DNA from: Vibrio atlanticus
GTDB lineage: Bacteria; Pseudomonadota; Gammaproteobacteria; Enterobacterales; Vibrionaceae
Direction: 5' to 3'
Length of the DNA stretch: 64,000 nt
NCBI RefSeq assembly: GCF_024347315.1
Contig: NZ_AP025460.1
Location: 868,001-932,000 of the forward strand
Program-made: the position numbers and the translations under genes
The notes under the pieces: model-generated
The model's input: the letters and a program-made list of their open reading frames with translations, nothing else
Database searches by the model: none
What the model was told of the DNA's origin: nothing
Part shown: one piece after another, positions 29,932 to 48,506 of the stretch
How the letters are laid out: every line of letters starts with the position of its first letter
Numbering within the stretch: the first letter of the stretch is position 1

Positions 29932-31155
29932 TCAGATTTTTTTGAATATGATGGAGGTGTTGATTCCGCCAAAGGCAAAGTTATTACTCATTACATACTC
30001 AACATTCAATTCGCGACCAGAACCTGTAATGTAATCGAGTTTGCCGCAGCGTTCGTCGATGTTTTCAAGGTTCAATGTTGGGCTGAACCAACCGGAATGC
30101 ATCATTTCTAGGCTCAACCAAGCCTCAATGGCACCACACGCTCCAAGCGTATGACCAAAGTAGCTTTTTAATGAGCTGATTGGCACTTCACCAAAAATGT
30201 TCGCGGTCGCATTACTTTCTGCAATATCGCCTTTATCTGTTGCCGTTCCGTGCGCCGAAACGTAACCAATTTTTTCAGCAGGAAGCTGTGCATCTTTCAG
30301 CGCTTTCTCCATACAGATTTGCATGGTTTCCATTTGAGGTTGGGTCACATGGGCGGCATCGCAGTTGCTGGCAAAACCGATGATTTCCGCGTAGATCTTT
30401 GCACCGCGAGCAACCGCATGTTCATACTCTTCAAGAACAAGCGTACCAGCACCTTCACCGATAACTAGGCCATCGCGCTCACTGTCGTAAGGGCTAGGGG
30501 ATTTTTCTGGCGTGTCGTTTTTTAAACTGGTAGCAAAAAGGGTATCAAAAACGGCAGATTCGGTTGGGCATAGTTCTTCACCACCTCCGGCCACCATCAC
30601 AGTTTGGTAGCCGTGTTTGATCGCTTCATAGGCGTAACCAATGGCTTGGCTACCTGAAGTACAGGCACTGCTGGTGGGAATCACGCGTCCACGTAAGCCG
30701 AAGAACAATCCTACGTTTACCGCAGCGGTGTGTGGCATCATTTGAACGTAAGTGGTTGCTGTGATCGCTCGTGTCGATTTCTCGTTAAGCATCACGCCAA
30801 ATGCACCAACAGCGTCAGTACTACCGGTTGAAGAACCATAGGCAATGCCTGTTTCGCCATTAGTCAAAACGTCGTGGCCAATCAGTCCTGCTTGCTCTAG
30901 TGCATTTTCGGTCGCCACTGTTGCTAGGCGAGACACGCGGCCCATGCCACGAACCTGTTTGCGCTTATAGTGCTTAGGTAGTTGGAAGTCATCAATAGGT
31001 GCGGCAAGCTTTGTGTTGAGGCCATCGTACTGCTCAAAGCTAGGCATGTACTGGGTCGCATTTTCACATGCTTTTAGTTTTGGCTCGATGTGCTGCCAAT
31101 CGTTGCCAAAAGCGGTAACGCCTGACATGCCAGTTACAACAACGCGGCGGGTCAT
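29932..31155 (-). CDS. apeR: Beta-ketoacyl-ACP synthase of the aryl polyene pathway (ApeR-type)
   Basis: A ketosynthase II-type condensing enzyme, the last gene of the pigment operon. The 407 residues carry the catalytic triad: C165 in TSSACTSGSQ, His in HGTATDKGD and His in GHTLGACGAIE, plus the terminal NNFAFGGINTS loop. In characterised aryl polyene systems a KS of this group works with ApeQ, ApeO and ApeP on ACP-bound intermediates. The letter follows gene order in published clusters and was not checked by search. It overlaps apeQ by ATGA. Confidence 0.88.
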   Translation of the reverse strand: MTRRVVVTGMSGVTAFGNDWQHIEPKLKACENATQYMPSFEQYDGLNTKLAAPIDDFQLPKHYKRKQVRGMGRVSRLATVATENALEQAGLIGHDVLTNGETGIAYGSSTGSTDAVGAFGVMLNEKSTRAITATTYVQMMPHTAAVNVGLFFGLRGRVIPTSSACTSGSQAIGYAYEAIKHGYQTVMVAGGGEELCPTESAVFDTLFATSLKNDTPEKSPSPYDSERDGLVIGEGAGTLVLEEYEHAVARGAKIYAEIIGFASNCDAAHVTQPQMETMQICMEKALKDAQLPAEKIGYVSAHGTATDKGDIAESNATANIFGEVPISSLKSYFGHTLGACGAIEAWLSLEMMHSGWFSPTLNLENIDERCGKLDYITGSGRELNVEYVMSNNFAFGGINTSIIFKKI

Positions 31156-31877
31156 ACTAAGCCTCCATTAACTGAAATCACTTGGCGAGTTACGTAGCCG
31201 GCAATATCCGACATTAGGTAGCTGACTAGGCCTGCTACTTCTTCTGGTTCACCCATGCGGCGTAATGGAACTTGAGGCAGCGCATGCTCTTTTACATGCT
31301 CATCAACCATCCCGGTATCGATTAGACCAGGAGCGACACAGTTTACCGTTATCTTGCGTTTTGCGAGCTCTAGAGCCAGAGACTTAGTTGCGCCAATCAC
31401 ACCTGCTTTTGCTGCGGCATAGTTGGTTTGACCGCGGTTACCCATGATGCCGGATACAGAAGCCAGAGTAACGATTCGACCGCCTTTGCGTTTTTGAACC
31501 ATTGGCATCACGCACGGGTGAAGTACGTTGTAGAAGCTGTCGAGGTTGGTATGGATAACACCATCCCACTCTTCTTCAGTCATAGCTGGGAATGCCGTGT
31601 CACGAGTAATACCGGCATTATTCACCACACCATAGTAAGCGCCGTGTTCGGCAATATCTGACTCAAGCGTTTCGCGACATTCGCTGCGATTGCTGATATC
31701 AAATTGGATCAGACGTCCTGCAGCACCGAGCTCAGTGATCGACTTTAATGTGTCTTCAGCACCTTGCTTGTCACCCATGTAATGAACGGCGATTTCAAAA
31801 CCGTCTTTCGCGAGTTGAATAGCGATCGCTTTACCAATGCCTTTACTGGCACCAGTGACTAAAACCTGACGGCTCAT
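31152..31877 (-). CDS. apeQ: 3-ketoacyl-ACP reductase (ApeQ-type)
   Basis: FabG-like short-chain dehydrogenase that reduces the beta-keto group after each condensation with NADPH. The 241 residues contain TGASKGIGKAIA (residues 9-20), NNAG (86-89) and the catalytic S140, Y153, K157 set in LASVSGIMG and NYAAAKAGV. It overlaps both neighbours by four bases, indicating tight translational coupling of KS, KR and DH subunits. Confidence 0.9.
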   Translation of the reverse strand: MSRQVLVTGASKGIGKAIAIQLAKDGFEIAVHYMGDKQGAEDTLKSITELGAAGRLIQFDISNRSECRETLESDIAEHGAYYGVVNNAGITRDTAFPAMTEEEWDGVIHTNLDSFYNVLHPCVMPMVQKRKGGRIVTLASVSGIMGNRGQTNYAAAKAGVIGATKSLALELAKRKITVNCVAPGLIDTGMVDEHVKEHALPQVPLRRMGEPEEVAGLVSYLMSDIAGYVTRQVISVNGGLV

Positions 31878-32338
31878 GATGGGCTCCTAGTTTTCATTTC
31901 TTGTAATTTTTGTTCGGTCGGCACGTAGACGTTGAGTTGGCATTGAGCCACTAACTCGCCTTGGTCTTCGACTCGGGCGGTAAACACGGCCATGCCACTG
32001 TCTTCCATGAGTTGTTCAGCATAGATATCAAGGGTTTGACCTTGAGTAAATTCATCACACAGTGACTTGTAGCGACGAGAACCGAGTAAGAAGCCGATTG
32101 GAGGAGTAGTGCCGTTTTTCAGCGCATGGTATCCAGACCAAGCTGCAACAGACTGCGCCATAAACTCGATGCCAACATAAGCTGGGACCGTTTGAGATTC
32201 GGCGTCAAAGAATAGGTTGTGCGCGCCAATATCGACCTGGCAGTGAATCGACAATGCCTCAACGTTGATAGCTCGATCGATTAATATCATCGGATCATCG
32301 TGTGGGAGAAGTTGGTCTACAGAAGGGATATCAGTCAT
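31874..32338 (-). CDS. apeP: Hotdog-fold dehydratase (ApeP-type)
   Basis: A FabZ-like 3-hydroxyacyl-ACP dehydratase of 154 residues. LLPHDDPMILIDRA near the N-terminus and GIEFMAQSVAAWSGYHAL with GFLLGSRRYKS are typical of the ApeP/FabZ-like group; repeated dehydration without enoyl reduction gives the conjugated polyene. It overlaps apeQ by four and apeO by eight bases. Confidence 0.87.
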   Translation of the reverse strand: MTDIPSVDQLLPHDDPMILIDRAINVEALSIHCQVDIGAHNLFFDAESQTVPAYVGIEFMAQSVAAWSGYHALKNGTTPPIGFLLGSRRYKSLCDEFTQGQTLDIYAEQLMEDSGMAVFTARVEDQGELVAQCQLNVYVPTEQKLQEMKTRSPS

Positions 32339-33530
32339 TTATTACACCAAAAATCAGGCTAATGTTGTTGCCACCAAAAGCGAACGAGTTGCTTAAGATG
32401 TTCTTTACTTTAAGTTTCTGGGAACAGTTTACCAAATCAATCTCAATATCTTCAGCTTTATACTGACATTTTTGTAAGGGGAGTGGTAAGTCATATTTTA
32501 GAATATGCCACGCAATTGCAGCCTCTATCGCACTTGCCGCTCCAAGAGTATGTCCTGTTAGAGGTTTGGTTGAACTGACGGGAACCTTGTTTGCAAAAAT
32601 ACGATGGATGGCTTTGCTTTCCATTGAGTCATTGAGTGGGGTTGCGGTGCCATGGGCATTAATATAACCGATGTCTTCTGCTCGTAACTGTGCAGAATCT
32701 AACGCTTTTATCATCGCTTGCTCAGCGCCGTTCCCTTCTGGGTGGGGCGCGGAAATATGGTGAGCGTCGGAGCTGTCGCCATAGCCTAATAGGGCTATAT
32801 TCGAAGTGCTTTGAGTTGTATTGGTAGCGGTTGGTTTTGTCTTGCTAAGCAACATAAATGCCGCTGCTTCTCCGATGTTGATGCCATCACGAGAGGCGCT
32901 AAAGGGCTTACAATGTGTGGTTGATAGCGCTTCAAGACCATGAAAGCCATTGAGCGTCAGCTTACATAGTGTATCGACACCTCCAACCAACACAGCATCA
33001 GCCATTCCTGAATCTAACAAACGTTGGGCAGTAATAAATACACGGCCACTTGATGAGCAAGCGGTCGATATCGCATAGCTTGGCCCGGTTAATGCACAAT
33101 GTTGGCTAACAAACTCAGAGGTGTTGCCAAGCTCTTGCTTTGAATAGTGGTAATCTTCGGGGAAAGAACCATGGTCAAGTTTGTGTTTAAAAGCCACTTC
33201 ACCATCAGAAATTCCTGAAGTGCTGGTGCCGATGACCACTGCAATTCTATCCGCACCAAACTGTGATTTTGCTTGTGCGATAGAGTCTTTGATTTGATTA
33301 AGAGCTGATAACGCCAGTTGATTGTTACGAGTGGCGTATTGAGCCTGACTTGATGGGATTTCCGGTAAATCACCAGCGACTTTACCAACGACCGTCGGCT
33401 GACCATCGTTGAGCATATCGCTCACTTCAACCATATTGGAGTCGGACTCATTGCTGAGGCAGCCATGAATGTCAGCAACGCTTGAGCCTAGCGCTGAGTG
33501 GAAACCACAGTCTTGGATATAAATAGGCAT
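32331..33530 (-). CDS. apeO: Beta-ketoacyl-ACP synthase (ApeO-type)
   Basis: A second KS, 399 residues, with nucleophile C158 (ISTACSSSGR), HGTATPLND and TGHTLGAASAIEA, and NSFAFGGNNIS at the end. In the aryl polyene system ApeO pairs with the chain-length-factor-like ApeC as the elongating KS heterodimer (family knowledge). The ATG lies five bases after the lipoprotein gene stop. Confidence 0.88.
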   Translation of the reverse strand: MPIYIQDCGFHSALGSSVADIHGCLSNESDSNMVEVSDMLNDGQPTVVGKVAGDLPEIPSSQAQYATRNNQLALSALNQIKDSIAQAKSQFGADRIAVVIGTSTSGISDGEVAFKHKLDHGSFPEDYHYSKQELGNTSEFVSQHCALTGPSYAISTACSSSGRVFITAQRLLDSGMADAVLVGGVDTLCKLTLNGFHGLEALSTTHCKPFSASRDGINIGEAAAFMLLSKTKPTATNTTQSTSNIALLGYGDSSDAHHISAPHPEGNGAEQAMIKALDSAQLRAEDIGYINAHGTATPLNDSMESKAIHRIFANKVPVSSTKPLTGHTLGAASAIEAAIAWHILKYDLPLPLQKCQYKAEDIEIDLVNCSQKLKVKNILSNSFAFGGNNISLIFGVIND

Positions 33531-33535
33531 GATGT

Positions 33536-34159
33536 TTAGCTCTTACTTGGGTTATCGACAATCGTTGAGTTCAACGTTTGTATCGTGATGGTGTAGCCTT
33601 GAATCAAATGCTTGAAAACAATGTTGCCTGCGGTTTTGTGTGTTCCGGGCTCTGCTTGGTAATCAATTTTAATGATTGGCTGTTGGTTTTCATCAAATAC
33701 GGTGCGGCTGTTTTCGGTATCGACCAAATACCAACCGATGTCTTGTAAAGGTTGAGCCCATGCTTCAACTGGCCATAGAGTTAGCATCAAATTAAATAGT
33801 ACTTGCTCGGGTAGCGGCAGGGTAGCGCCAAGACCAGATAGAACTTGAGTATCAATCGTTTGGTTTTGGTATTGCAGCGATAGAATGCGAGTACCCCAAG
33901 AGGAGAAACCCGCCAACACGACTTTGTCTGATGTGACTTCGACTTGAACAGGAAGTTGCTGCGTATCATCTTGCCATGTTGCGCTAATCAGCTGGCTTGC
34001 TGTAAATGAGTATCCCAGTTCAGCAGGCAGCGGCAAGGCTAGCTCGGTGTCTTTATCGATTGCGACACTTGCGCCTGTAGGCTGTTGAGATACCATCGAA
34101 CAAGCGCTGAGTAATAAGCCTAATCCAACGGCGAGCGCTATCTTGATTATTTTGTTCAT
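33536..34159 (-). CDS. apeN: DUF3261-type lipoprotein of the polyene export set (ApeN-type)
   Basis: The 207-residue product starts with a lipoprotein signal peptide (LLLSAC, Cys20). The rest is beta-rich with QVLFNLMLTLWPVEAWAQPL and GWYLVD, as in DUF3261 proteins that accompany polyene clusters. It probably anchors in the outer membrane and receives or places the pigment. It overlaps the MMPL gene by four bases. Confidence 0.82.
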   Translation of the reverse strand: MNKIIKIALAVGLGLLLSACSMVSQQPTGASVAIDKDTELALPLPAELGYSFTASQLISATWQDDTQQLPVQVEVTSDKVVLAGFSSWGTRILSLQYQNQTIDTQVLSGLGATLPLPEQVLFNLMLTLWPVEAWAQPLQDIGWYLVDTENSRTVFDENQQPIIKIDYQAEPGTHKTAGNIVFKHLIQGYTITIQTLNSTIVDNPSKS

Positions 34160-36528
34160 CTAAAAGCCTCTCGAGAGTTTGATTTTTCCGCTGCTTGTTG
34201 GTTGTTGATTGCAAGTGGCGAAAGCAGCCACGCTACAAAAATACCAGTTAGCACGGTAATACCGAAGCTATGAATAGCGTGAGTCTGGCTCAACGACAGC
34301 AAGCCGAATGAAAGCAATGTTGTAAGGCCAGATAAGGTGATCGCTAATAAGGTGCTCAGTGACTTCTTCTGTTCAGCAAAGAACAGGGTGTAGTCGATAC
34401 CAATCCCTAAAATCAGAATCAAGCCTAGCAGATTAAACAGGTTTAACGTTGAGCCTAAAATGCCCGTTATCGCTAAACCAGCGACTCCGGCAATTAATGA
34501 AGGCAACAGCATTAACAGGCTTTGCTTCACACCGTAACGCCAACCTAACACCATCCCAATAGCGGCCAAAGCTATCAATAATAGCTCGGTGATCTTGACT
34601 CTGTATTCCGCAAAGAGAGCAGAGATTTCATCGGCTTTATTAAGGTACTTAACACCTTGTTGCTGAGCAAAGCTTGAATCGAGCCATTGAGAGAACTGTT
34701 CTGAATTTGTGACGTCTTTGATCAAAATGACCGACGCCGCTTGTCCATCGATCGGCTTCAACCAAAGTGGTCGAACAGGTTCTGACACAGGTGATTCTAA
34801 AAATCCAGATACCGTGATTGCCTCGAACTTAGGTAGCTCTGGAAAGCTAGGCCAACCAAGAGTGTTTTGTAAGATATGGCTTTGCTGGCTATAGAGTTGT
34901 TCAACCAATTGATAGTTATCATGCTGTTGTTGTTTGCTTAACAACTGTTGATTGATGCTGCGATATCCGGAGATACCCTGGCTATCGACTAGAGAATCTA
35001 AGCTTGTGGTGATTTCTGCCAGTTTTTTAAGTAGCTTTTGGTCGCTGTTGGCAGTCACCAAAAGCATATTTTGACCGCTGCCTAATCCTGATATCTCAGT
35101 AATGGCTTGTTCTTGCTGTTTGAGTTGATCAGGCATCGCTTGAAGTTGACGAATATCGTCGTCGTAGCGAATTTGGCTGAGTGATATCAAACTAACGACA
35201 GTCACTATTAATGGTAAGCCAATTCTAAATTTTTGGTTGCTCCAGAGGCTTAACCAAGTATGCCAAAGCTTCGATAAGGGAAGAGGTCGTCCTTGGCTTG
35301 GTGTTGCCGCTAAAACCGGATACCAACACACCACACTGGCGTAAGCTGCGATCAGTCCAATCGACGAAAAAAGAGCAAGTTGCTGTAACCCCGGGAAAGG
35401 TGCCACTAACAGACCTAGGTAGCCAATCAAGCTGGTGATCAGACCCAAGGTGATCGCAACGATAATATGTTTCAAGCCTTTGTCGCTTTGCCATTGATTA
35501 CCAGCCGCCAAGCGATCAGTCAGGTAGTGAAAGGAGTAGTCGATGGATACGCCAATCAAGCTAGCGCCAAACACCAAGCTAAACAGGTGAACTTTACCGA
35601 AGATAGCGACGGTGCTTGCCAGAGCGACCAATAATCCGGTACTGATTGAAAGCAAAGACAAGGCAAGTGGGAGGGCGCTACGAAATGTTAGCCACACCAA
35701 TAAAATTACACCGGCCAATGAGCCCAAACCAATGGTACTGATTTCTGATTTCGCGCTTTCGGTACCGTAATTGGCGTAGAACACCACACCGGTATGCTGC
35801 ACTTTGACACCAAACTGCTTTTCGATCTCGCGCTCAATTGAATCAAGATCGGGAAGTTGCTCTTGAATCGCTAAACTATAAGGCGAACCTGCCAGAGTCG
35901 CCGTCACCAAAATATGAGTTTGCTCATTAGATTGAGCGGTGAGGTAGCCTTCTTTCACAACAAAGTTACTTGATTGAACGCCAACAGCACTGATGTAGTC
36001 GCGAAATAGCAGAAATGGGTCGAGAGATAGCTCTGCTGCAGTGACGCCTGAAAACGGATTGTACAGAGACTGAATGACATATTGAGCTCGCGAATCCGGC
36101 GAGTGTGTCAGCGTCTCTTTTTGTTGTTGGGTCAGCAGTTGAGCTCGGTGACGAAAATAGAAGTCGCTCCACTGGCTTTGAGTACTGGCGTTGATTTTTC
36201 CTTGAACTTGCTTAAACAGAGTTGGCTGGCTTGAGAAAGCTCTTTGGTTAAGTTTTTTTTCAAAAGCGTCAGTCGCTGTCATGGCTTGTTCGACGTCGGA
36301 GGCACTTATGATAAAGACCACTTGCTCGCTCATCGAGCTGGATATCTGCTGAAAGGCTTGCTCTACTATGGGGTCTTGCTGGTTTTCTGGCAGCAATTTC
36401 ATGATGTTGCTTTCAATGGGTACTGACGAAGAAAAAGCGAATTGTTTGATCAACAATCCGCTAAATAGCACTACGACAACAAGCCAAGCAAGGGCTAGAC
36501 TAGAATTGGAATTGTTGCGCTTCAGCAT
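34156..36528 (-). CDS. apeM: MMPL/RND-family exporter (ApeM-type)
   Basis: The 790-residue membrane protein has the MMPL layout: an N-terminal TM helix, a large periplasmic domain, a cluster of about five TM helices (residues 260-410), a second periplasmic domain and a second TM cluster (residues 640-770). GVSIDYSFHYL and GIGIDYTLFFAEQ are the paired conserved TM motifs of the family. It is likely the inner-membrane transporter that hands the pigment to the LolA-like chaperone. It overlaps apeL by 29 bases. Confidence 0.87.
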   Translation of the reverse strand: MLKRNNSNSSLALAWLVVVVLFSGLLIKQFAFSSSVPIESNIMKLLPENQQDPIVEQAFQQISSSMSEQVVFIISASDVEQAMTATDAFEKKLNQRAFSSQPTLFKQVQGKINASTQSQWSDFYFRHRAQLLTQQQKETLTHSPDSRAQYVIQSLYNPFSGVTAAELSLDPFLLFRDYISAVGVQSSNFVVKEGYLTAQSNEQTHILVTATLAGSPYSLAIQEQLPDLDSIEREIEKQFGVKVQHTGVVFYANYGTESAKSEISTIGLGSLAGVILLVWLTFRSALPLALSLLSISTGLLVALASTVAIFGKVHLFSLVFGASLIGVSIDYSFHYLTDRLAAGNQWQSDKGLKHIIVAITLGLITSLIGYLGLLVAPFPGLQQLALFSSIGLIAAYASVVCWYPVLAATPSQGRPLPLSKLWHTWLSLWSNQKFRIGLPLIVTVVSLISLSQIRYDDDIRQLQAMPDQLKQQEQAITEISGLGSGQNMLLVTANSDQKLLKKLAEITTSLDSLVDSQGISGYRSINQQLLSKQQQHDNYQLVEQLYSQQSHILQNTLGWPSFPELPKFEAITVSGFLESPVSEPVRPLWLKPIDGQAASVILIKDVTNSEQFSQWLDSSFAQQQGVKYLNKADEISALFAEYRVKITELLLIALAAIGMVLGWRYGVKQSLLMLLPSLIAGVAGLAITGILGSTLNLFNLLGLILILGIGIDYTLFFAEQKKSLSTLLAITLSGLTTLLSFGLLSLSQTHAIHSFGITVLTGIFVAWLLSPLAINNQQAAEKSNSREAFR

Positions 36529-37198
36529 CTGATAATACTTCCGGTAGATGGCTTAACTGGCTAAATTCGATCACTGTGCTGTCTCCACGAACTTCTCTAA
36601 GTTCGATACGTTCAATGTCATCTTGTCCTTGCAGCGTGATGGCTTCAAACACCGCGTTCATTGGTGCATTCTTTGGCTTTAGAGTGAGTGTCCATCGTGT
36701 GTCTTCTGAACTTGAGTTTGCACTTTCATCAGAATTTTTCGCAGTTGCTGGTTCAAATGAAAGTGAGAATTGCTCTTGAAGCTTTTGCGTATCCCCATGA
36801 AACACTGACAAGAAGATATGGCTGAAATAAAACGCCATCGGGTTTTCTTTGTCGGTGATGATTTTAGCGGGTTGATCTGCAAACCTTTGGCTCAGTTTGT
36901 TATCGGTTAGCACTAAGCTCACAGGGAAGGGGGTCGCTTGTGTCCAAAGTAAACCATTCGACTTGTCTAACAGGAAAGTACCTTGTGATGTTAGAGGTTG
37001 GGCGAACATTTCCATGTTGCGTGTTTGAGTGAACTGACCACGAACGATACTATTTTCGCTTAACACGGTTTGTAGTTCTGTAATAGAACCGACAGCATTT
37101 GTGTTCTCGCTAGCGCCAGCAAAGTGACTAGCCATCATTGAAGCAAGCCCTAGCAGTGCGATACTGATTTGCTTACGGCCGTGTTTAAACAGACTCAT
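36500..37198 (-). CDS. apeL: LolA-like periplasmic carrier (ApeL-type)
   Basis: The 232-residue product has a signal peptide (about residues 1-29, GLASMMASHFAGA) and a LolA-like fold: IVRGQFTQTRNMEMFAQPL, SQGTFLLDKSNGLLW and W/beta-rich repeats. It is a paralogue of the lipoprotein carrier LolA dedicated to the pigment, linking the MMPL exporter to the outer-membrane lipoprotein (inference). It overlaps apeK by 14 bases and apeM by 29. Confidence 0.85.
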   Translation of the reverse strand: MSLFKHGRKQISIALLGLASMMASHFAGASENTNAVGSITELQTVLSENSIVRGQFTQTRNMEMFAQPLTSQGTFLLDKSNGLLWTQATPFPVSLVLTDNKLSQRFADQPAKIITDKENPMAFYFSHIFLSVFHGDTQKLQEQFSLSFEPATAKNSDESANSSSEDTRWTLTLKPKNAPMNAVFEAITLQGQDDIERIELREVRGDSTVIEFSQLSHLPEVLSDAEAQQFQF

Positions 37199-37715
37199 GT
37201 TTCACCTGCTGCTGTGTGTTAGATACTTGAGATGGGTCTGATTGTTGGTCGTTTGGTTGCTGCTCAGCTGATTGGGGTAAGCAGCCAAATTGATGCCAGC
37301 GTTCGACTTTATCGGTAAACACCTTCGGCGAAGCAAAACACATCTCTTGCTCTTCAATGGTTACTGCAACCTGCATGGTGTGAGCGCGTGTCATGCGAGC
37401 ACCGGTGTTGGCATCGTGAATTTCGTAGTCAACACGCAAGCGGTTTTCCCATTCAGTTAACTTAGCGGATACCGTGATCTGATGATTAAACGGTATTGCT
37501 TTGATGTACTTTACGCGCGTGTCGATGATCGGCCACATGTAGCCCGAATCCTTCATCTCATGGTAGTTGTACTCAATCTTATCCATCATGATGCGCCTAA
37601 CTTCTTCAAAAAATCGGAAGTAGTTGCCATGGTAGATCACGCCCATTGGGTCGGCATCTTGGAATGAGGTTACTAAAGTAACCTCTGATTTTAATGGATG
37701 AAGGATTTCAGACAT
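37185..37715 (-). CDS. apeK: Acyl-CoA/ACP thioesterase, 4HBT type (ApeK-type)
   Basis: Hotdog thioesterase of 176 residues with the 4-hydroxybenzoyl-CoA thioesterase signature DADPMGVIYHGNYFRFFEE (residues 21-39; Asp is catalytic). The Gln-rich tail from residue 148 is not part of the fold. It may release or proofread acyl chains. It lies 39 bases after the ammonia-lyase gene. Confidence 0.85.
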   Translation of the reverse strand: MSEILHPLKSEVTLVTSFQDADPMGVIYHGNYFRFFEEVRRIMMDKIEYNYHEMKDSGYMWPIIDTRVKYIKAIPFNHQITVSAKLTEWENRLRVDYEIHDANTGARMTRAHTMQVAVTIEEQEMCFASPKVFTDKVERWHQFGCLPQSAEQQPNDQQSDPSQVSNTQQQVKHESV

Positions 37716-37754
37716 AAATCGCTCTCAACAATATTGCGTAAAGGGTTAGCTACT

Positions 37755-41100: not shown

Positions 41101-41455
41101 TTTTCTCTCCCAGCTTCATTTTTCCTGAAGAGTGGGTCTGTTCACCGTTGTTTGAGGTGTAGCTGAAGCTCAGCTTGTCTTTGTCAGCATCCCATTTGAG
41201 TGATAGCTGGATTGTGGCGTCAGGAAGGATAGGCTCTTGGAATTTGATGACCTCCATACCTTTAAAGTAACCAGGGACATTTAACTCTTGGACAGCATAG
41301 TGAAGTGCCCAGTCAATTTGTGTCACACCGGGAAGAATAGGGAAGCTCTTAAAGTGCCCCTTAAAATCGGTGATGTCTCCGGTAACATGGAGTGTCAGGG
41401 TCGATTCTTTCTCTACAGTGTCAACAGCAATGACGTTTGGTTTTCTCTTATCCAT
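41093..41455 (-). CDS. apeI: Hotdog dehydratase (ApeI-type)
   Basis: The 120-residue FabZ-like protein contains GHFKSFPILPGVTQIDW, the HxFxxxPxxPG signature of 3-hydroxyacyl-ACP dehydratases. With ApeP it supplies the two dehydratase subunits known from the aryl polyene complex. An 87-base gap separates it from apeH, the second longest in the operon. Confidence 0.87.
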   Translation of the reverse strand: MDKRKPNVIAVDTVEKESTLTLHVTGDITDFKGHFKSFPILPGVTQIDWALHYAVQELNVPGYFKGMEVIKFQEPILPDATIQLSLKWDADKDKLSFSYTSNNGEQTHSSGKMKLGEKSE

Positions 41456-41542
41456 AGCGTGTGCTTAGAATCCTTGGGCTAAAATGGGTCTTCTGACAAA
41501 AATATAAAAGATAATCTCAGTATAAAATGCGACCAGTGATTT

Positions 41543-42931
41543 TTATGATTTGACGAGCTGCTCTATGTGAGAGGTTAGTCGCTTGCCTTGGCTGTTGAGG
41601 GGGATCTCATCAACAACACGATACTTTCTTGGAATAGCGATTGGCTCTAACCATTTTCTGAGTTCTGAACGTAACATTAACCAGAATTTACCTTTACTCA
41701 TGGTTGCGAGAGTCACTTGGCCTTCCTCTGATAATACCAAAACCGATGCTAAAATTAAGCGTTCAGGCTCTTCAAAGGGAATGACCACACACTCGCTTAT
41801 CCAAGGTAGTTGCTCCAGTCGCTTTTCAACTTCAACCAGTGATACTCGTTTTTCTTCTATCTTGATCACTCGGTCGGTTCGGCCTTTCAATATAAATTGA
41901 TTCTCTGAGACCATTTCGCACTCATCTGCGGTTTGATACCAGTTGTTTTTGTCGATGTACGGCGACAATAACTTAATGCAATTCTCACTATTAAGACTAG
42001 CCTTAATACAGTCAAAAAGCTGCCAAGGTGTTTGAACGCTCTGTTGCTGACGAAACGCGATGCCGCCGGTTTCTGTGCTGCCAAACACCTCGATAGGTAA
42101 ATGCCCAAGCAGATCTCGTGATTGATGAGCCGACTCGGTAGGTAAAGGGCCACCAGAAGAGAACACCCCCGCTAGATGCGTAGACTTTGTCTCGTGTTTT
42201 AATCGTTTGAGTAGCGCAGGGCTGCTGATCAACACGCTCTGCTTGTTAGCGTGAGACAGGATCTGTTCCGGGTATTCGAGATTGTTTCGAGAAAATGGAA
42301 CTCCAGAACAAAGTGGCCATAAGATTCGAAACAACAGACCATAGATATGTTGGTGTGATACGGTGCTGTGGATTTGGTTGTCTTTAAGCAAGGCGCCCCA
42401 GTTTTTATCTAGCTGAGCGATTTCAATATCTAGGTGTTCTAGTGTTTTATTGATTGCCTTCGGCGTACCGCTTGAACCTGAAGTAAACAGGGTCAATGGG
42501 GTAGCGGCTAAATCAATTGTCGTTTGGTCATTTGCTAGAAGAGTGGGTACTTCTATGTTTGAGTCCAACACTGCTTGGACGTTGCAAACCTCGTTTACTT
42601 CTACTTTGCCAATCGCATCATCGACTAACAGACAGTCAAAATGCTCACTCAGCTCGGCAAGCGCACACGGTTGATAGTTACCTGGCAAGATGATGTGTTT
42701 GTTGCTGACTGCGCACGCTAAAAAGGCCACCGAAAATAGGTAGCTGTCTTGGGTGCAAATCGCAACTCGTTGAAAAGGGGATGCAGATAAAAGCTGTACG
42801 AGTTGAGATAAGTCGTCGTTAAATGTTTGCCACGTAATCTCGCTATTGTTGTCAAAGCAGACAATACAATCAGGCGATCTGTTCTGATTGAGAAGTTCAG
42901 ACAAGGAAGTGTAAGAGACGGTTTGGGTCAT
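41543..42931 (-). CDS. apeH: AMP-dependent acyl ligase (ApeH-type)
   Basis: ANL-superfamily adenylating enzyme of 462 residues. The P-loop TLFTSGSSGTPKAINKT, EVFGSTETGG and ILKGRTDRVIKIEEKRVS (A8 hinge region) are visible. In the pathway it activates the aryl carboxylic acid starter and loads it on an ACP. With the ammonia-lyase in the same operon, cinnamate or coumarate is a likely substrate. Confidence 0.88.
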   Translation of the reverse strand: MTQTVSYTSLSELLNQNRSPDCIVCFDNNSEITWQTFNDDLSQLVQLLSASPFQRVAICTQDSYLFSVAFLACAVSNKHIILPGNYQPCALAELSEHFDCLLVDDAIGKVEVNEVCNVQAVLDSNIEVPTLLANDQTTIDLAATPLTLFTSGSSGTPKAINKTLEHLDIEIAQLDKNWGALLKDNQIHSTVSHQHIYGLLFRILWPLCSGVPFSRNNLEYPEQILSHANKQSVLISSPALLKRLKHETKSTHLAGVFSSGGPLPTESAHQSRDLLGHLPIEVFGSTETGGIAFRQQQSVQTPWQLFDCIKASLNSENCIKLLSPYIDKNNWYQTADECEMVSENQFILKGRTDRVIKIEEKRVSLVEVEKRLEQLPWISECVVIPFEEPERLILASVLVLSEEGQVTLATMSKGKFWLMLRSELRKWLEPIAIPRKYRVVDEIPLNSQGKRLTSHIEQLVKS

Positions 42932-42937
42932 AACAAT

Positions 42938-43495
42938 TTAACTCTGACGAATGCGCTGTCTTACTACCCACTCTCCTGCAAAGAGCAACCCTGCAAATAC
43001 ATAGCTGAGTAAGCCATTGTATAGGGTCCATATTTCAAGAGGTTGGAAGCAGGTGTAAAGGGCGATAGAGCCATTGATAACAAAGAACAGACACCAAACT
43101 TTGGTGACTGTTCGTGTGTAATCAACGCCACTTTGTGGAAGTTCTGGCTCTTGGAGGCGAGCAAGCCGCTCGATAATCGTTTGCGGTTGCCATAGGCTCA
43201 AGGCGAACACAACCAGCATACAAACATTAACGATGACGGGGTAATAAGTTAGCCAGCCGTGCTGTTTGAAGGTTAACCCTAATACCAGCAGAACAATTCC
43301 GGCACTTCCGCTGATCCAAGCTAGGTGTTTTAGCTCTTTGATTTTAGCCTGACCACCGGTGAAAATGCGGACAGCAAAAATAGCGGCTAAGACGATACCA
43401 ACGGTTTGTAGGCCAAACTTGTTGAGTCCAAAGTAAACCGCTATTGGATAAGTGAAAAGTATGATTGCCGACAGTAAAGTCAGCAGAGGACGCAT
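42938..43495 (-). CDS. apeG: Polytopic membrane protein of the pigment cluster (ApeG-type)
   Basis: The 185 residues form about five hydrophobic helices with an amphipathic middle (LARLQEPELPQSGVDYTRTVTK). It matches a conserved uncharacterised membrane family found beside polyene ACP genes. Its stop is six bases before apeH, and its ATG overlaps the apeF stop by one base (TAATG). Confidence 0.78.
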   Translation of the reverse strand: MRPLLTLLSAIILFTYPIAVYFGLNKFGLQTVGIVLAAIFAVRIFTGGQAKIKELKHLAWISGSAGIVLLVLGLTFKQHGWLTYYPVIVNVCMLVVFALSLWQPQTIIERLARLQEPELPQSGVDYTRTVTKVWCLFFVINGSIALYTCFQPLEIWTLYNGLLSYVFAGLLFAGEWVVRQRIRQS

Positions 43496-43752
43496 TATGC
43501 GTCCTTCAATAGTTCAACCACAGACTCGACAACGTCATTAACGGTGCGTACTGCTTTGAACTCTTCAGGCTTGATCTTCTTACCTGTAACGTTCTGTAAG
43601 TGAACGACCAAATCAACGGCATCAATGCTGTCGAGATCGAGGTCGAGATAAAGGTGTGCTTCTGGAGTGATATCTTCAGCATCAAGCTCAAACAGCTCGA
43701 TAAGCGCATCTTTAACCTGGTTGAATACTTCTTGTTGGTTAGCTTGTGTCAT
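43495..43752 (-). CDS. apeF: Acyl carrier protein (ApeF-type)
   Basis: The 85-residue ACP has the phosphopantetheine site Ser in LDLDLDSIDAVDLV (about residue 42). It is acidic and helical as usual. It is the second of two tandem ACPs and carries starter or growing chain on its phosphopantetheine arm; which role is which cannot be told from sequence. Confidence 0.92.
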   Translation of the reverse strand: MTQANQQEVFNQVKDALIELFELDAEDITPEAHLYLDLDLDSIDAVDLVVHLQNVTGKKIKPEEFKAVRTVNDVVESVVELLKDA

Positions 43753-43762
43753 AAAGATCTGT

Positions 43763-44023
43763 CTAGTTGTTTGTTTTAGATGAAATGTAGTTAGCTAGGT
43801 TTTCAACCGATGCAAAATGCTGGCGAGTGTTTGAATCGTCGGCATCGATAACAATGTTGTACTTTTTCTTGATAGCAAGGCCGAGCTCAAGGGCATCGAT
43901 AGAATCTAATCCAAGTCCATCACCAAACAGTGGTGCTTCCGTTTCAATTTCATCAATGCTCATATCTTCAAGATTCAGTGCGTCGATAATCAGTTGTTTT
44001 AGTTCGTTGTGTAATGTTTCCAC
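43763..44023 (-). CDS. apeE: Acyl carrier protein (ApeE-type)
   Basis: The 86-residue ACP has the phosphopantetheine Ser in GLGLDSIDALELG (about residue 41). The start codon is GTG (44021-44023). It is ten bases upstream of apeF and preceded by a 106-base gap with a possible internal promoter. Confidence 0.92.
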   Translation of the reverse strand: METLHNELKQLIIDALNLEDMSIDEIETEAPLFGDGLGLDSIDALELGLAIKKKYNIVIDADDSNTRQHFASVENLANYISSKTNN

Positions 44024-44069
44024 TTAGGCCTACTTAGTACTTTATCTAAATGCTACTTCAAGGGGGGCG

Positions 44070-44098
44070 ATTCTACATTATGTGATGTATTTTCGAAA
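44070..44098 (-). promoter_or_regulatory. Possible internal promoter before the ACP genes
   Basis: On the minus strand TTTCGA (44093-44098), 17-base spacer, TAGAAT (44070-44075), then CGCCCCCC. The -35 is poor, but the -10 plus C-rich discriminator resembles those of gltX and the tRNA array in this window. It lies in the longest gap of the operon. Confidence 0.4.
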
Positions 44099-44129
44099 CG
44101 CTGATATCACCAGTTGTTTTATTGATGAG

Positions 44130-44900
44130 CTAAATATTCTCTTCGGAAGGAAAAATAGTCTGTGCAAGGTGTTGATTGAGGCGCCTTGCTGCCGAAGTTA
44201 AGTTGTTTGAATTCTCAATAAAGGGTGCGACGTCTATTTTACCTTTCACTGCGATATGAAAAAAGGGTTTAGTGGCAGGAACTTGATACCATTTTTTCTC
44301 TTTTGTTAAGAATGTCGGAGAAACTGTAATATGAATCACGCGTAAGTCGGTTTGTGTTCGAGTGGCAATTTGTGCCGCACCACGTTGTAAGGATGGTTCA
44401 ATTCCTGGCGTTGTGCGAGTTCCTTCAGGGAAAACTAACAATACATTTCCACGCGAAAAGCGTTCTTCACAGCGTTCTAAAAGATCGTCAGGGGTTTGGT
44501 TGGGTATGTATCCCGCTGCTTTGACAATCCTCTTCATAAACGGGTTTTCCCATATTGCCGCTTTAACAAGACAATCACATTGAGGAAGTTGAGAGGCGAT
44601 CAGTACATAGTCAATCAAGCTAGGGTGATTGGCGACAATGATGCAGTTGCGATCTTCGCGGAGCAGTTCGGCGCCATCAATTTGGTAATCAATCGCGCCT
44701 GTGAACTTCATTATTTGGCAGAATGCATTGAATGAGAAACGGATTAATCGTTGTGCTTTGAGCTCTCTTTCTATGACGTTGCGAGTCGTTAGGGCGATCG
44801 AAGGTAAGATTAAGAAGCTTAAGACTAAGCCTCCCAAACCAAAGATGGTAAAGCAGAGCCCCGTCGCGAATACTCGCCAACATTGGCCTACTTTGCTCAT
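44130..44900 (-). CDS. apeD: 1-acyl-glycerol-3-phosphate acyltransferase family protein (ApeD-type)
   Basis: PlsC-type acyltransferase of 256 residues: an N-terminal membrane segment (residues 8-33), the catalytic NHPSLIDYV (NHxxxxD) near residue 91 and FPEGTRTTPG near 156. It probably transfers a fatty acid or polyene acyl chain to a lipid-like acceptor. It overlaps the apeC stop by ATGA. Confidence 0.87.
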   Translation of the reverse strand: MSKVGQCWRVFATGLCFTIFGLGGLVLSFLILPSIALTTRNVIERELKAQRLIRFSFNAFCQIMKFTGAIDYQIDGAELLREDRNCIIVANHPSLIDYVLIASQLPQCDCLVKAAIWENPFMKRIVKAAGYIPNQTPDDLLERCEERFSRGNVLLVFPEGTRTTPGIEPSLQRGAAQIATRTQTDLRVIHITVSPTFLTKEKKWYQVPATKPFFHIAVKGKIDVAPFIENSNNLTSAARRLNQHLAQTIFPSEENI

Positions 44901-45676
44901 TTCTGTGCACCTGCTTGGGCGTTATTGACCCAGGACCAGTTTTGGTGCTTACCAGCAATAGTCCAATGCTGTGTTCCCAATAGGATATGTTGTAGCGTTT
45001 GTAGGCCTTGTGGTAAATCAGCGGCTGAGCTGTCTCTAACTTTGGGGGCGCTAGCGATTGGTTTACTTGTTACTGCTCTCGAAACTGAGTAGTCACTGCC
45101 TGCCGTGAGTACTAAACCTAGAGCGTAGTCAGCATAGTGCTGATTTTCGTATTCTCGATATACATCAGGCAGAGGTTGGTCGAAGTCAATGACGAGTACA
45201 CGATGTGACGGATACTGATGTAGGTAAAGATAAGCTTCAATCAGGGCGTTGTGAAAGGTATCTTGCCCAGCAGCGATAGAGGTCAGTGGAATCGGTGCTT
45301 TTGCAGCAATCGTTGTTAGACCTGCAGCGGTGTTGTGTACCGATTGGGAAAACGCCATTGGAGAGGCGTCGTCACCTTCTAATATTGATTGAATTAAAGT
45401 GGCTGTTCGGTGGAGCTCACCATGCCGACTGGCAAAAACCAGATAATCAATCGAGGTATCTTTTAATAGGGTTAATGCGGTTTGGACGGCCAGTTTGCTT
45501 TGCAGGCTCATTCGGCGGCGCATCATAGGAGGGATGGCTTTAAATTCGGTTGAGCCATTTTGTGGCCAATCTAAATGAGTGCTCCACGTTTGCCACTCGG
45601 CAACGGAATAGAGGCCTGGCGAATTTGCTGACCATTTTTCAATATTAAACGACATTAATTGGGATTGATTTGACAT
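44897..45676 (-). CDS. apeC: Beta-ketoacyl synthase-like chain-length factor (ApeC-type)
   Basis: The 259 residues resemble a truncated ketosynthase: MRRRMSLQSKLAVQTAL, FASRHGELHRT, SPMAFSQSVHNTAAGLTTIA. The nucleophilic Cys is absent at the expected position (TSIAAGQDTFHNAL), as in chain-length factors. It is expected to dimerise with ApeO. It is the first gene of the 17-gene minus-strand operon, 71 bases from the divergent lipoprotein gene; no strong promoter match is obvious in that gap. Confidence 0.83.
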   Translation of the reverse strand: MSNQSQLMSFNIEKWSANSPGLYSVAEWQTWSTHLDWPQNGSTEFKAIPPMMRRRMSLQSKLAVQTALTLLKDTSIDYLVFASRHGELHRTATLIQSILEGDDASPMAFSQSVHNTAAGLTTIAAKAPIPLTSIAAGQDTFHNALIEAYLYLHQYPSHRVLVIDFDQPLPDVYREYENQHYADYALGLVLTAGSDYSVSRAVTSKPIASAPKVRDSSAADLPQGLQTLQHILLGTQHWTIAGKHQNWSWVNNAQAGAQK

Positions 45677-45747
45677 AGAGTATTGATTTACTTTGGGTCT
45701 AACTAATACTATGCATGCTTATAAATAAACACGGGTAAGGAGTTTAA

Positions 45748-46137
45748 ATGAAATTACTAAAAATAGCCGTTTCAATGTTATTTATACTCGTTCTTGCAGG
45801 CTGTGGACGTGTCCAACCTGTAATGAATGTTGAGGATACTCCAGTTGCTTTGAATCTTCAAAGTAAACAGGTGAAATCAGCGATTTATGAGTCTGCTGAG
45901 AACCGAGGTTGGTTGGTTTCAGAAATTAAGCCAGGCCTAATCCGTGCTGAACTGTATGTCCGTTCACATCATGCTGTGGTTGATATTCTATATAATGATA
46001 AGTTTTACTCTATTCTTTACGTCGAATCAGAGAATTTGAAGTACGACGATGGTGAAATACACCGTAATTACAACCGTTGGGTTAATAACTTGAACGTTGA
46101 TATTAAACGCAAGCTTGCACAAATGGCTGCTATGTAG
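45748..46137 (+). CDS. Small lipoprotein at the divergent arm of the pigment cluster (ApeA-like)
   Basis: The 129-residue product has a lipoprotein signal peptide ending LVLAGC and a compact domain with ENRGWLVSEIKPGLIRAEL and HRNYNRWVNNL. Such small lipoproteins recur at the edge of aryl polyene clusters; function is unknown. The ribosome-binding site AAGGAG is strong, seven bases before the ATG. It heads a three-gene unit with the methyltransferase and the flavoprotein. Confidence 0.7.
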   Translation: MKLLKIAVSMLFILVLAGCGRVQPVMNVEDTPVALNLQSKQVKSAIYESAENRGWLVSEIKPGLIRAELYVRSHHAVVDILYNDKFYSILYVESENLKYDDGEIHRNYNRWVNNLNVDIKRKLAQMAAM

Positions 46138-46166
46138 CTCTCTATTATTTTAAAGTTAGGTTTTTC

Positions 46167-47240
46167 GTGTCGGAATATAAATTAGATCCATTTAACGCAT
46201 TGGAAGCAAAAACAGAAGCGCAAAAATTGTCTTTTGCTCCTATTGTTTTTCATACAGCTCGTACACTTCGTGATTTAGGTATCTTGAAAGCGTTAGATGA
46301 CGCGGGCAATGATGGTTTACCCGCTGAAACTATTTCTCAAGCAACGGGTGTATCCGAATACGGTGTCAAAGTTCTGCTTGATATGGCGTTGAGTGCTCAC
46401 ATCGTTACTTGGGATAAGCCTCATTATAAAATGGCTAACCTAGGTTTTTATCTATTGCACGATGGCATGACCAACGCAAATATGGATTTCACGGCTGATG
46501 TTTGTTATGCCGCGATGATGCATTTAACCGAAGCAATAGAAGAAGGTACACCTGCAGGCCTGAAAGAGCTGGGTGATTGGGAAACGATTTACCAAGGTTT
46601 GTCTCAATTACCAGAAAAAGCAAAAGAGAGCTGGTTTAAGTTTGATCATTTCTACTCAGATCGTTCGTTCCCCGTGTTGCTTGAGAAAGTTTTCAGTAAG
46701 AAGCCTAAATCGTTGGTGGATATTGGCGGTAATACAGGTAAGTGGGCAATGCAATGTTGTAACTACGACTCTGATGTCGAGGTGACGATTGTCGATTTGC
46801 CGCAACAATTAGAAATGGCAATGGCAAACGCAACACAGCACGGTCATCAAGACCGAGTGACTCCATTCCCCGCTAACATGCTTGATAAACAGCAAGCGCT
46901 GCCGACAGGTACGGATGTGTGGTGGATGAGTCAGTTCCTTGATTGTTTCTCGCCAATGGAAATTCTTAGCATATTAAAGCGTGTTCGCTCTCATATGTCA
47001 GAAGACGCGACTGTTTATATCCTTGAACTGTTTTGGGATGCACAGAAATACGATGCGGCTTCTTATAGCTTAAATGCGACGTCTCTCTACTTCACTTGCT
47101 TGGCCAACGGCAACAGCCGCTTTTACCGCAGTGAAGATTTCCTAGAGATAGTGGAAGAGGCTGGCTTTGATGTGGTGACTCGTACCGACGATATCGGTCT
47201 TGGGCATACGCTTCTGGAGCTGAAAGCTAGCGCGAAATAA
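46167..47240 (+). CDS. SAM-dependent O-methyltransferase (ApeB-like)
   Basis: The 357 residues match plant/polyketide-type O-methyltransferases (family 2). An N-terminal winged-helix dimerisation domain (TLRDLGILKAL, GVSEYGVKVLLDMAL) precedes the SAM site VDIGGNTGKWAM (about residues 184-195). It likely methylates a hydroxyl of the aryl head group, a modification known in aryl polyenes. Start codon GTG with TAGG six bases upstream. Confidence 0.85.
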   Translation: MSEYKLDPFNALEAKTEAQKLSFAPIVFHTARTLRDLGILKALDDAGNDGLPAETISQATGVSEYGVKVLLDMALSAHIVTWDKPHYKMANLGFYLLHDGMTNANMDFTADVCYAAMMHLTEAIEEGTPAGLKELGDWETIYQGLSQLPEKAKESWFKFDHFYSDRSFPVLLEKVFSKKPKSLVDIGGNTGKWAMQCCNYDSDVEVTIVDLPQQLEMAMANATQHGHQDRVTPFPANMLDKQQALPTGTDVWWMSQFLDCFSPMEILSILKRVRSHMSEDATVYILELFWDAQKYDAASYSLNATSLYFTCLANGNSRFYRSEDFLEIVEEAGFDVVTRTDDIGLGHTLLELKASAK

Positions 47241-47264
47241 TCATGGTAAACATGGCTTAAATTA

Positions 47265-48506
47265 ATGAAAAAACTGTCAACTCAAGTAGTGATCATCGGA
47301 GCTGGCCCATCAGGGGCTATTGCTGCGTCTTTGCTTCATAAAAAAGGCATCGATGTTCGAGTGATTGAAAAAAGCCTTTTCCCCCGTTTTTCTATTGGTG
47401 AAAGTCTGTTACCAGCGTGCATGGAAGTGATCGAACAAGCGGGCATGAGCGAAGCTGTGACTAATGCTAACTTCCAATTTAAAGATGGCGCGGCTTTTCG
47501 TAAAAATGGTGTTTATACGGCGTTTAATTTTGAAGATAAGTTCTCTTCTGGGCCGGGAACGACGTTTCAGGTTCAACGAGGTACTTTTGATAAGGTAATG
47601 GCAGACTGTGCTGAAGCGCAGGGTGTTACCATTGATTACCAACATGAACTGATCGGCATTAACTTCACTGAAGACCGTACTGTACTAGATGTACAAATAC
47701 AGGGTGGAGAGCGTTATCAGCTAGAGGCTCAATACGTCCTTGATGGTAGTGGTTTTGGTCGAGTGTTACCCAAGATGCTCGATTTAGAAGAGCCATCACG
47801 ACTTCCTCCGCGCAAAGCTATCTTCACACATATTAATGATCATATCTCAGCAACGGATACTGATCTTGAATACGATCGTAGTAAAATTTTGGTCTCGGTA
47901 CATCCAACCAATCCTGATGTTTGGTATTGGTTGATTCCCTTCAGTAACGGAGTCTCTTCATTCGGTGTGGTAGGGGAGCCTGAATTCTTTGAATCATACC
48001 CAGAAGACAAAATTTCGGCGATTAAGCAACTGGCAACAGAAGAGTCGGGCTTGGCCGAGATTTTGGCAAATGCGGAGTATCCAAATCCCGCAGGCGAAAT
48101 TGGTGGTTATTCTGTCAACGTTAAACATCTTGCAACCGATAAGTATGCATTACTGGGTAATGCGGGGGAATTTCTTGACCCTGTATTTTCATCGGGAGTG
48201 ACTATTGCGATGAAGTCGGCTCAGTTTGTGGTTGAGTGTGTGGAAAAACAACTCAATGGCGAGAAAGTCGACTGGGATCGTGAATACGCTGAACCATTGA
48301 TGATTGGGGTAAATACTTTTAGAACGTATGTTGAAGGGTGGTACTCGGGGGCTCTTCAGGATGTGATTTTCTATCAAGAACCAAACCCGAAGATAAAGCA
48401 AATGGTATGTTCGATTTTGGCGGGCTACGCATGGGATCAAAGCAACCCCTATGTAAACGAGTCAAAACGTCGATTGAAGACGCTGGCAGAGATATGCCGA
48501 AGCTAG
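47265..48506 (+). CDS. FAD-dependent oxidoreductase of the halogenase/monooxygenase family
   Basis: The 413 residues begin with the FAD site VIIGAGPSGAIAASLLHKKG and then FSIGESLLPACME, and contain the motif WYWLIP (WxWxIP, about residue 224), a hallmark of flavin-dependent halogenases and related enzymes. GNAGEFLDPVFSSGV is the second FAD motif. It could hydroxylate, halogenate or reduce the aryl ring; sequence alone does not decide. It is 24 bases after the methyltransferase and followed by a terminator. Confidence 0.8.
   Translation: MKKLSTQVVIIGAGPSGAIAASLLHKKGIDVRVIEKSLFPRFSIGESLLPACMEVIEQAGMSEAVTNANFQFKDGAAFRKNGVYTAFNFEDKFSSGPGTTFQVQRGTFDKVMADCAEAQGVTIDYQHELIGINFTEDRTVLDVQIQGGERYQLEAQYVLDGSGFGRVLPKMLDLEEPSRLPPRKAIFTHINDHISATDTDLEYDRSKILVSVHPTNPDVWYWLIPFSNGVSSFGVVGEPEFFESYPEDKISAIKQLATEESGLAEILANAEYPNPAGEIGGYSVNVKHLATDKYALLGNAGEFLDPVFSSGVTIAMKSAQFVVECVEKQLNGEKVDWDREYAEPLMIGVNTFRTYVEGWYSGALQDVIFYQEPNPKIKQMVCSILAGYAWDQSNPYVNESKRRLKTLAEICRS

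Follow-up and report, generated by a model that had tools for sequence, protein, structure and literature searches.

The host genome is that of a Splendidus-clade Vibrio, and the window (the whole 64,000-nucleotide stretch of DNA analysed here) carries 20 genes at 29932-48506 that resemble those for aryl polyenes (APEs), which are yellow pigments. The question raised by this locus is whether it holds a new pathway or a copy of a known gene set, and what the genes added to the E. coli-type set might do.

The locus matches the APE gene set

Gene functions were called with Pfam and NCBIfam models, and identities to the E. coli CFT073 Ape proteins were obtained by tblastn (Table 1). Seventeen genes lie on the minus strand and three form a divergent arm on the plus strand. 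Within the run of 17, neighbours overlap or are spaced by at most 40 bp except at two gaps, of 87 bp (41456-41542) and 106 bp (44024-44129). The outer coordinates, the two-arm layout and the core APE functions had been given by the initial annotation, and the open reading frames and Pfam/NCBIfam matches agree with it on these points. A scan of 45500-45950 for promoters and terminators found nothing, and an Rfam scan of 27000-52000 gave no match.

Table 1 Genes of the cluster, in window coordinates
Product	Coordinates	Strand	Evidence
ApeR, 3-ketoacyl-ACP synthase	29932..31155	-	Pfam ketoacyl-synt; NF006587 above cut-off; 71% to E. coli ApeR
ApeQ, 3-ketoacyl-ACP reductase (FabG2)	31152..31877	-	TIGR01831 above cut-off; 68% to E. 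coli
ApeP, dehydratase	31874..32338	-	PF22817 ApeP-like, 108.5 bits (cut-off 27)
ApeO, 3-ketoacyl-ACP synthase	32331..33530	-	NF006618 above cut-off; 46% to E. coli
ApeN, DUF3261 LolB-like lipoprotein	33536..34159	-	PF11659
ApeM, MMPL/RND-type exporter	34156..36528	-	PF03176
ApeL, LolA-like carrier	36500..37198	-	PF03548; LolA2_flexi 59 bits, under cut-off 125
ApeK, hotdog thioesterase	37185..37715	-	PF13279
Aromatic amino acid ammonia-lyase	37755..39302	-	PF00221, 550.8 bits
ApeJ, glycosyltransferase-acyltransferase fusion	39280..41100	-	PF00535 + PF03279
ApeI, dehydratase	41093..41455	-	PF22818 ApeI-like
ApeH, aryl-ACP ligase (adenylating)	41543..42931	-	PF00501
ApeG, membrane protein (COG4648-type slot)	42938..43495	-	Position; 50% to E. 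coli ApeG
ApeF, acyl carrier protein	43495..43752	-	PF00550; NF003757 above cut-off; DLDSID motif
ApeE, acyl carrier protein	43763..44023	-	PF00550; NF006617 above cut-off; GLDSID motif
ApeD, lysophospholipid-type acyltransferase	44130..44900	-	PF01553
ApeC, chain-length factor	44897..45676	-	PF13723, 241.7 bits
ApeA, lipoprotein	45748..46137	+	No Pfam match; 40% to E. coli ApeA
ApeB, SAM methyltransferase	46167..47240	+	52% to E. coli ApeB; FlxJ family 492.7 bits (cut-off 560)
Halogenase-fold FAD protein	47265..48506	+	PF04820

The cluster has the ketosynthase ApeO, with the active-site Cys motif STACSS, together with the chain-length factor ApeC; the ApeP and ApeI dehydratases, both above the cut-offs of their families (PF22817 and PF22818); dedicated acyl carrier proteins with the aryl-ACP ligase ApeH and the reductase ApeQ; and genes for lipid attachment and Lol/RND-type export (D, J, L, M and N). 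The best NCBIfam match of ApeH is to 4-coumarate-CoA ligase (95.6 bits, under the cut-off of 334.7), and ApeA carries a lipobox-like motif, LAGC. For each of the 18 ape genes of E. coli CFT073 there is a counterpart here, as judged from annotation, tblastn and the gene table of PMC8253772. This gene-by-gene agreement exceeds chance by far, and on gene content the region is predicted to encode a complete APE pathway with an aryl polyene as its product. The initial annotation had described such a cluster with three extra genes, and had suggested that the aryl head of the product may be distinct. The APE type stands, as do an ammonia-lyase and a halogenase-like flavoprotein, neither of which occurs in the CFT073 cluster. 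The third, a methyltransferase, is the standard ApeB.

The additions are widespread in Vibrionaceae

In a survey of 150 Vibrionaceae genomes, in which proximity meant lying within 30 kb of ApeP, ApeP was found in 96 (95 above the family cut-off and one, G130, below it). The lyase was present in 94 genomes (87 within 30 kb of ApeP), ApeB in 81 (76 near ApeP) and the flavoprotein in 65 (62 within 30 kb). In nine of the 96 genomes with ApeP the lyase was missing at that distance: three lacked it altogether, and in six it was on another contig or far off. A further survey of named loci used the lyase as query, so that it is present by construction in the 80 lyase-bearing loci recovered, 72 of which held all 16 core genes, C to R. 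ApeB accompanies 71 of these 72 full clusters; within 10-kb flanks, 54 of the 71 add the flavoprotein and the other 17 do not. Because named and unnamed loci share some genomes, the results of the two surveys are partly linked. Among genomes sampled from the wider class, not counting the host's own group, twelve carried the lyase, and 11 of these were examined (G383 was left out). The notion that the cluster is peculiar to one genome was rejected, since the same loci occur across Vibrionaceae and in Aliivibrio fischeri. Both additions are common in Vibrionaceae APE clusters.

The ammonia-lyase probably acts on tyrosine

The lyase gene sits between apeJ and apeK. Histidine ammonia-lyase identity was rejected because the protein scores under the hutH cut-off (406 versus 539 bits), the genome has a separate HutH (its second lyase, 669 bits), and the selectivity residues differ: FH (motif 1) and NQD (motif 2) in the cluster enzyme versus SH and NQE in the genome's own HutH. 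The MIO triad ASG, found in 100 of 100 lyase sequences examined, is nonspecific, as HutH carries it as well. Gln at motif 2 is the residue of tyrosine and phenylalanine ammonia-lyases (TALs and PALs) according to the portion of PMC3992019 consulted, which also holds that lyase specificity is not predictable from sequence. The two tyrosine-lyase models are narrow, and the protein falls under the cut-off of each (FlxA, 363.5 versus 700 bits; BagA/FevW, 429.7 versus 1000 bits).

Taken together we consider the enzyme probably a TAL. An alternative that we regard as unlikely is that its substrate is phenylalanine or another aromatic compound, or that it feeds a side pathway, with 4-hydroxybenzoate as the aryl starter as in E. 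coli. Motif 1 bears on this, since FH departs both from TALs, in which this motif starts with His, and from the SH of the genome's HutH; Phe at this site is found in PALs. Moreover, the lyase need not provide the starter, because Xenorhabdus ApeH loads 4-hydroxybenzoate (PMC8253772), and lyase-free APE clusters that are largely complete are found in other gammaproteobacteria (15 of 16 core genes were matched in L108; L111 and L116 are further cases), as in E. coli. Against this, all 72 full named clusters have the lyase in the slot between J and K, as does Pseudoalteromonas, and a tyrosine start has a precedent in the flexirubin pathway, which the text seen of PMC3992019 describes as beginning with a tyrosine lyase and a ligase and including a ring methyl group.

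ApeB is not an extra O-methyltransferase

ApeB aligns with E. coli CFT073 ApeB at 52% identity over 347 residues, so an extra O-methyltransferase was rejected; the "O-" label derives solely from the name of the Pfam fold. By analogy ApeB is probably a ring C-methyltransferase, a ring carbon being favoured because the ApeB and flexirubin precedents, in the excerpts at hand, point there.

Proposed pathway

Gene content, order, homology and conservation were computed here. On the most likely route, the lyase would convert L-tyrosine to 4-coumarate, which ApeH would adenylate and load onto ApeE. ApeO and ApeC would then extend the chain with malonyl units as a type II polyketide synthase, with reduction by ApeQ and dehydration by ApeP and ApeI giving the conjugated polyene. 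ApeB would methylate the ring carbon ortho to the phenol. The acid would be released and joined to lipid by ApeK, ApeD and ApeJ, and ApeL, M, N, G and A would transfer the product to the outer membrane. The polyketide synthase, loading and export roles are taken from work on E. coli and Xenorhabdus as described in PMC8253772. The locus is very likely a Vibrionaceae-type cluster of the A. fischeri APE-Vf kind, with a probable tyrosine to 4-coumarate route, lipid attachment, export and an optional flavoprotein.

The flavoprotein may be a tailoring enzyme

The flavoprotein gene directly follows apeB in the divergent arm. We infer that its product is an optional tailoring enzyme of the cluster. 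The motifs GxGxxG, FxxKxGxxF, WxWxIP and FxxPxxSxG are all conserved. The lysine of FxxKxGxxF and the WxWxIP and FxxPxxSxG motifs are kept in 57 of 57 sequences examined, a set that takes in the window copy and some near-duplicate loci. In the portions seen of PMC8407142 and PMC10377541, WxWxIP and Fx.Px.Sx.G are published marks of halogenases. Among the 25 listed of 46 NCBIfam models, none scored above its own cut-off. In excerpts of the literature on aryl polyenes and flexirubins with an ammonia-lyase or halogenase, no reaction was found assigned to the protein.

It is quite possible, if somewhat short of probable, that the protein oxidises the aryl head, the polyene or its lipid, as a hydroxylase or otherwise, rather than being a halogenase. 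Structures of p-hydroxybenzoate hydroxylase match it over the FAD-binding part, and it also matches the models for the QhpG monooxygenase and the LodB maturase. Other gammaproteobacteria have it in their APE clusters whether or not the lyase is there, as expected of a general APE tailoring enzyme; among the 14 loci with the flavoprotein in other families, two (L117 and L119, both on short contigs) show no APE gene. However, the halogenase motifs are kept, among them WxWxIP, which the partly seen sources regard as blocking monooxygenation.

Those motifs fit better a working halogenase, dependent on FADH2, that would add chlorine or bromine to the phenolic head and so make a halogenated aryl polyene unlike that of E. 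coli, a reading that we nonetheless doubt. The closest solved structure, 3nix (371 bits), is titled a flavoprotein/dehydrogenase rather than a halogenase, although the next nearest, ChlB4, PltA, CmlS, 5buk and CndH (3e1t), are halogenases. The NCBIfam CmlS halogenase model gives 130 bits where 900 are required, the geranylgeranyl-reductase and QhpG models rank next, and PF04820 matches E. coli and archaeal control genomes as well. Chlorine-bearing flexirubins are known (PMC3992019, partial text), but no halogenated Vibrio aryl polyene was found in the excerpts of literature examined. A further reading, which we hold to be unlikely, places the protein in a branch of the halogenase fold that is as yet uncharacterised, is dedicated to APE clusters and acts on the head group, possibly by chlorination or bromination. 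If this is true, many marine Vibrio and other gammaproteobacteria carry overlooked halogenated aryl polyene lipids on the outer membrane. The flavoprotein, found alongside APE clusters in many gammaproteobacteria, is the point of interest of this locus.

Comparison with known systems

The E. coli CFT073 cluster (APE-Ec) has the apeC-apeR order seen here, but its apeA and apeB are in line with the other genes, whereas here the pair is inverted and divergent. The flexirubin clusters of Chitinophaga pinensis and Flavobacterium johnsoniae begin with a tyrosine ammonia-lyase in the descriptions available, and the window has homologues of the flexirubin LolA-like protein, reductase and FlxJ-family methyltransferase. 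Flexirubin membership was nevertheless rejected: no darA or darB dialkylresorcinol gene was seen among the 20 (ApeR gives a weak cross-match to DarB, 26 versus 550 bits), and the FlxA, FlxB (274 versus 340 bits), FlxJ and LolA2 models are all below cut-off. In Pseudoalteromonas donghaensis HJ51 (NZ_CP032091) the lyase lies, as here, between a J part and K. Its ApeJ glycosyltransferase and acyltransferase parts are separate genes, its flavoprotein (53% identity) is located between M and N, and no methyltransferase is annotated in the stretch.

Aliivibrio fischeri is a squid symbiont, and its strain ES114 has an APE cluster of about 20 genes. The APE-Vf head is not known to differ from that of APE-Ec other than in methylation. 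Our comparison used A. fischeri emors.2.1 (L025) rather than ES114. All 17 genes of the minus strand recur there, with the lyase again between J and K, as do divergent ApeB and flavoprotein genes, in the order found here and with proteins 42-88% identical to those of the window. The exception is the apeA slot, where a lipoprotein of 191 aa stands that is unlike the one of 129 aa here. Heterologous expression of the ES114 cluster is on record (PMC8253772), and an ammonia-lyase is named among genes shared with it (PMC5851621). The initial annotation had held that a gene set already characterised would speak against its reading; for the gene set this is the case, because the A. fischeri order matches, the ES114 cluster has been expressed and its ammonia-lyase is listed. 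At the level of the cluster there is little new: the family is very common, and the locus is an ordinary marine-Vibrio copy of the APE gene set known from A. fischeri.

Gene content of the cluster and comparison with E. coli

Twenty open reading frames, none with an internal stop, make up the aryl polyene (APE) cluster of this three-contig, 5.1 Mb genome. Seventeen lie on the minus strand, where neighbors overlap or are at most 40 bp apart save for two gaps (87 and 106 bp), and the other three are on the plus strand, in agreement with the 17-gene run and divergent arm described in the initial annotation. Pfam and NCBIfam assigned the polyene-making functions (ketosynthases, chain-length factor, reductase, ApeP and ApeI dehydratases, two ACPs, and an adenylating ligase), acyl and glycosyl transferases, a thioesterase, LolA-like, MMPL, and DUF3261 export proteins, plus an aromatic lyase, a methyltransferase, and a halogenase-fold flavoprotein; the 129-residue lipoprotein matched no family in either collection.

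The E. coli CFT073 cluster sequence was retrieved for comparison, with the gene table taken from a portion of PMC8253772. All 18 E. coli ape genes have counterparts in the window, which together with the family assignments bears out that the core APE functions are complete. The order from apeC to apeR is identical, whereas apeA and apeB, which run with the other genes in E. coli, are inverted in the window and diverge from them. Since the E. coli set already includes the methyltransferase (179 of 347 aligned residues identical to ApeB), the additions number only two: a lyase gene lying between apeJ and apeK and a flavoprotein gene that follows apeB. Hence, two of the three extras earlier claimed relative to the E. 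coli-type set stand and the methyltransferase does not.

Coordinates of the features discussed, in the window unless another locus is named
Feature	Position	Strand	Remark
Window in its genome	G000:C1:868001-932000
APE cluster	29932-48506
Ammonia-lyase	37755-39302	-
First plus-strand start	45748	+
ApeB methyltransferase	46167-47240	+
Flavoprotein	47265-48506	+
18-tRNA array	62-2620	-	repeated Met(CAT), Leu(TAG), Gln(TTG) units
Lipoprotein in apeA slot	L025 3132-4025
Reduced cluster	L088 6758-14505
Lyase with NRPS genes	L016 7994-17934

Distribution of the added genes

Among the best 120 matches of the lyase and of the flavoprotein, entries with names were Vibrio in both cases; V. splendidus, V. 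lentus, and V. tasmaniensis made up most of those for the flavoprotein. Across 150 genomes of the family, ApeP-like proteins were found in 96 (95 over the cut-off), close lyase homologues (at least 66% identity; split into two 81% fragments in one genome) in 94, ApeB in 81, and the flavoprotein in 65. Within 30 kb of ApeP on one contig, the 96 ApeP genomes held the lyase in 87 cases, ApeB in 76, and the flavoprotein in 62 (of its 65). In a named-species scan with a relative's lyase as query, the best 80 of 150 loci were analyzed: 72 had all 16 core genes (C-R), the lyase occupying the J-K interval in every one, and of these 71 had ApeB and 54 ApeB and the flavoprotein together. The other eight lacked some core genes, some being truncated by contig ends and others arranged differently. 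The cluster is of an ordinary, widespread, and already described kind.

Reduced clusters with a lyase were also seen in L088 (Photobacterium lutimaris), L021 (same pattern), L017, and L018. Those of L088, L017, and L018 keep C, E, H, I, O, P, and Q of the polyene core, along with K in L088 and L017; R gave only a weak match. They lack the methyltransferase as well as D, F, G, J, L, M, and N. Behind the L088 cluster come genes for ABC transport and outer-membrane efflux.

In a survey of 274 gammaproteobacterial genomes including that of the window, the flavoprotein was found in 14 others (E <= 1e-60), the lyase in 12 others (E <= 1e-100), and both in six. The flavoprotein lay amid APE genes in 12 of 14 outside loci, and APE genes adjoined the lyase in all 11 retrieved outside lyase loci. 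Of the 14 flavoproteins from outside the family, none had an ApeB match beside it. In a chromid cluster of a named Pseudoalteromonas, the lyase occupies the J-K slot, as in the window, and the flavoprotein (53% identity to the window's) sits between M and N. As some outside loci carry both genes and others, such as L108 (15 of 16 core genes matched), the flavoprotein without the lyase, the two additions are modules that recur in APE clusters and are also found apart. Flavoprotein homologues of 40-42% identity were also present on L117 and L119, short contigs of one family with no APE gene on them, and thus some members of the flavoprotein family may act elsewhere than in APE synthesis.

Predicted functions of the lyase, methyltransferase, and flavoprotein

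The MIO triad ASG and the selectivity residues, FH at site 1 and NQD at site 2, were present in all 100 lyase sequences. The lyase scored 406 bits on the hutH model, under the cut-off of 539, and the genome's separate histidine ammonia-lyase HutH, an internal control, scored 669 bits and reads SH and NQE at these sites. According to excerpts of PMC3992019, the flexirubin lyase FlxA was predicted to be a HAL and has a HAL-like site 1 and a TAL/PAL residue at site 2, yet prefers tyrosine to phenylalanine about 1000-fold; its authors hold that lyase specificity is not predictable from sequence. Given the FlxA precedent, tyrosine is the likely substrate of the cluster lyase.

Lyase copies 81-83% identical to that of the window occur in L060, L069, L086, L055 (Photobacterium), and L022, where a chain-length factor and a single ACP were the only APE genes matched nearby; in P. 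chitinilyticum such a copy comes on top of a full cluster (L034). In L016, the lyase (80% identity) adjoins two NRPS genes, one with a terminal reductase domain; the 18-kb stretch matched no other APE genes, and the genome that carries L016, G121, is absent from the ApeP matches.

On the FlxJ family, the methyltransferase reached 492.7 bits, short of the 560 cut-off. Its first solved relative is 3dp7, with Fur6 and the aromatic C-methyltransferase SibL far behind. E. coli ApeB is assigned to head group methylation in a portion of PMC8253772, and in flexirubins the methyl group stands in place of a hydrogen on the ring, so far only at positions ortho to the hydroxyl, according to parts of PMC3992019. 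O-methylation by ApeB finds no support in the present analysis.

Halogenation of the aryl head group by the flavoprotein seems unlikely. The reaction is chemically plausible, as ring-chlorinated flexirubins exist (PMC3992019, in part), and 57 of 57 flavoprotein sequences from the compared loci (including the window's and near-duplicates) keep GxGxxG, WxWxIP, FxxPxxSxG, and the lysine of FxxKxGxxF, whose opening F is Y in one of them. WxWxIP and Fx.Px.Sx.G are halogenase marks in excerpts of PMC8407142 and PMC10377541. Among solved structures, 3nix is the nearest relative (371 bits), followed by the halogenases ChlB4, PltA, and CmlS at 126-137 bits. However, none of the 25 models listed (of 46) was over its own cut-off, and PF04820 matches in E. 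coli and archaea too. No assigned reaction for the APE flavoprotein came up in literature searches and excerpts confined to open-licence PMC.

Comparison with the Aliivibrio fischeri cluster

In A. fischeri emors.2.1 (L025), the other 19 genes are present in the same order, whereas the apeA slot holds an unlike 191-residue lipoprotein in place of the 129-residue ApeA. Parts of PMC8253772 report heterologous expression of the V. fischeri ES114 cluster and state that it contains all genes needed; parts of PMC5851621 list the ammonia-lyase among the genes common to a Pseudomonas cluster and that of ES114; and parts of PMC10286705 report a V. fischeri-like APE cluster from another Vibrio isolate. 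The set of genes is thus not new; the A. fischeri strain compared here was emors.2.1 rather than ES114.
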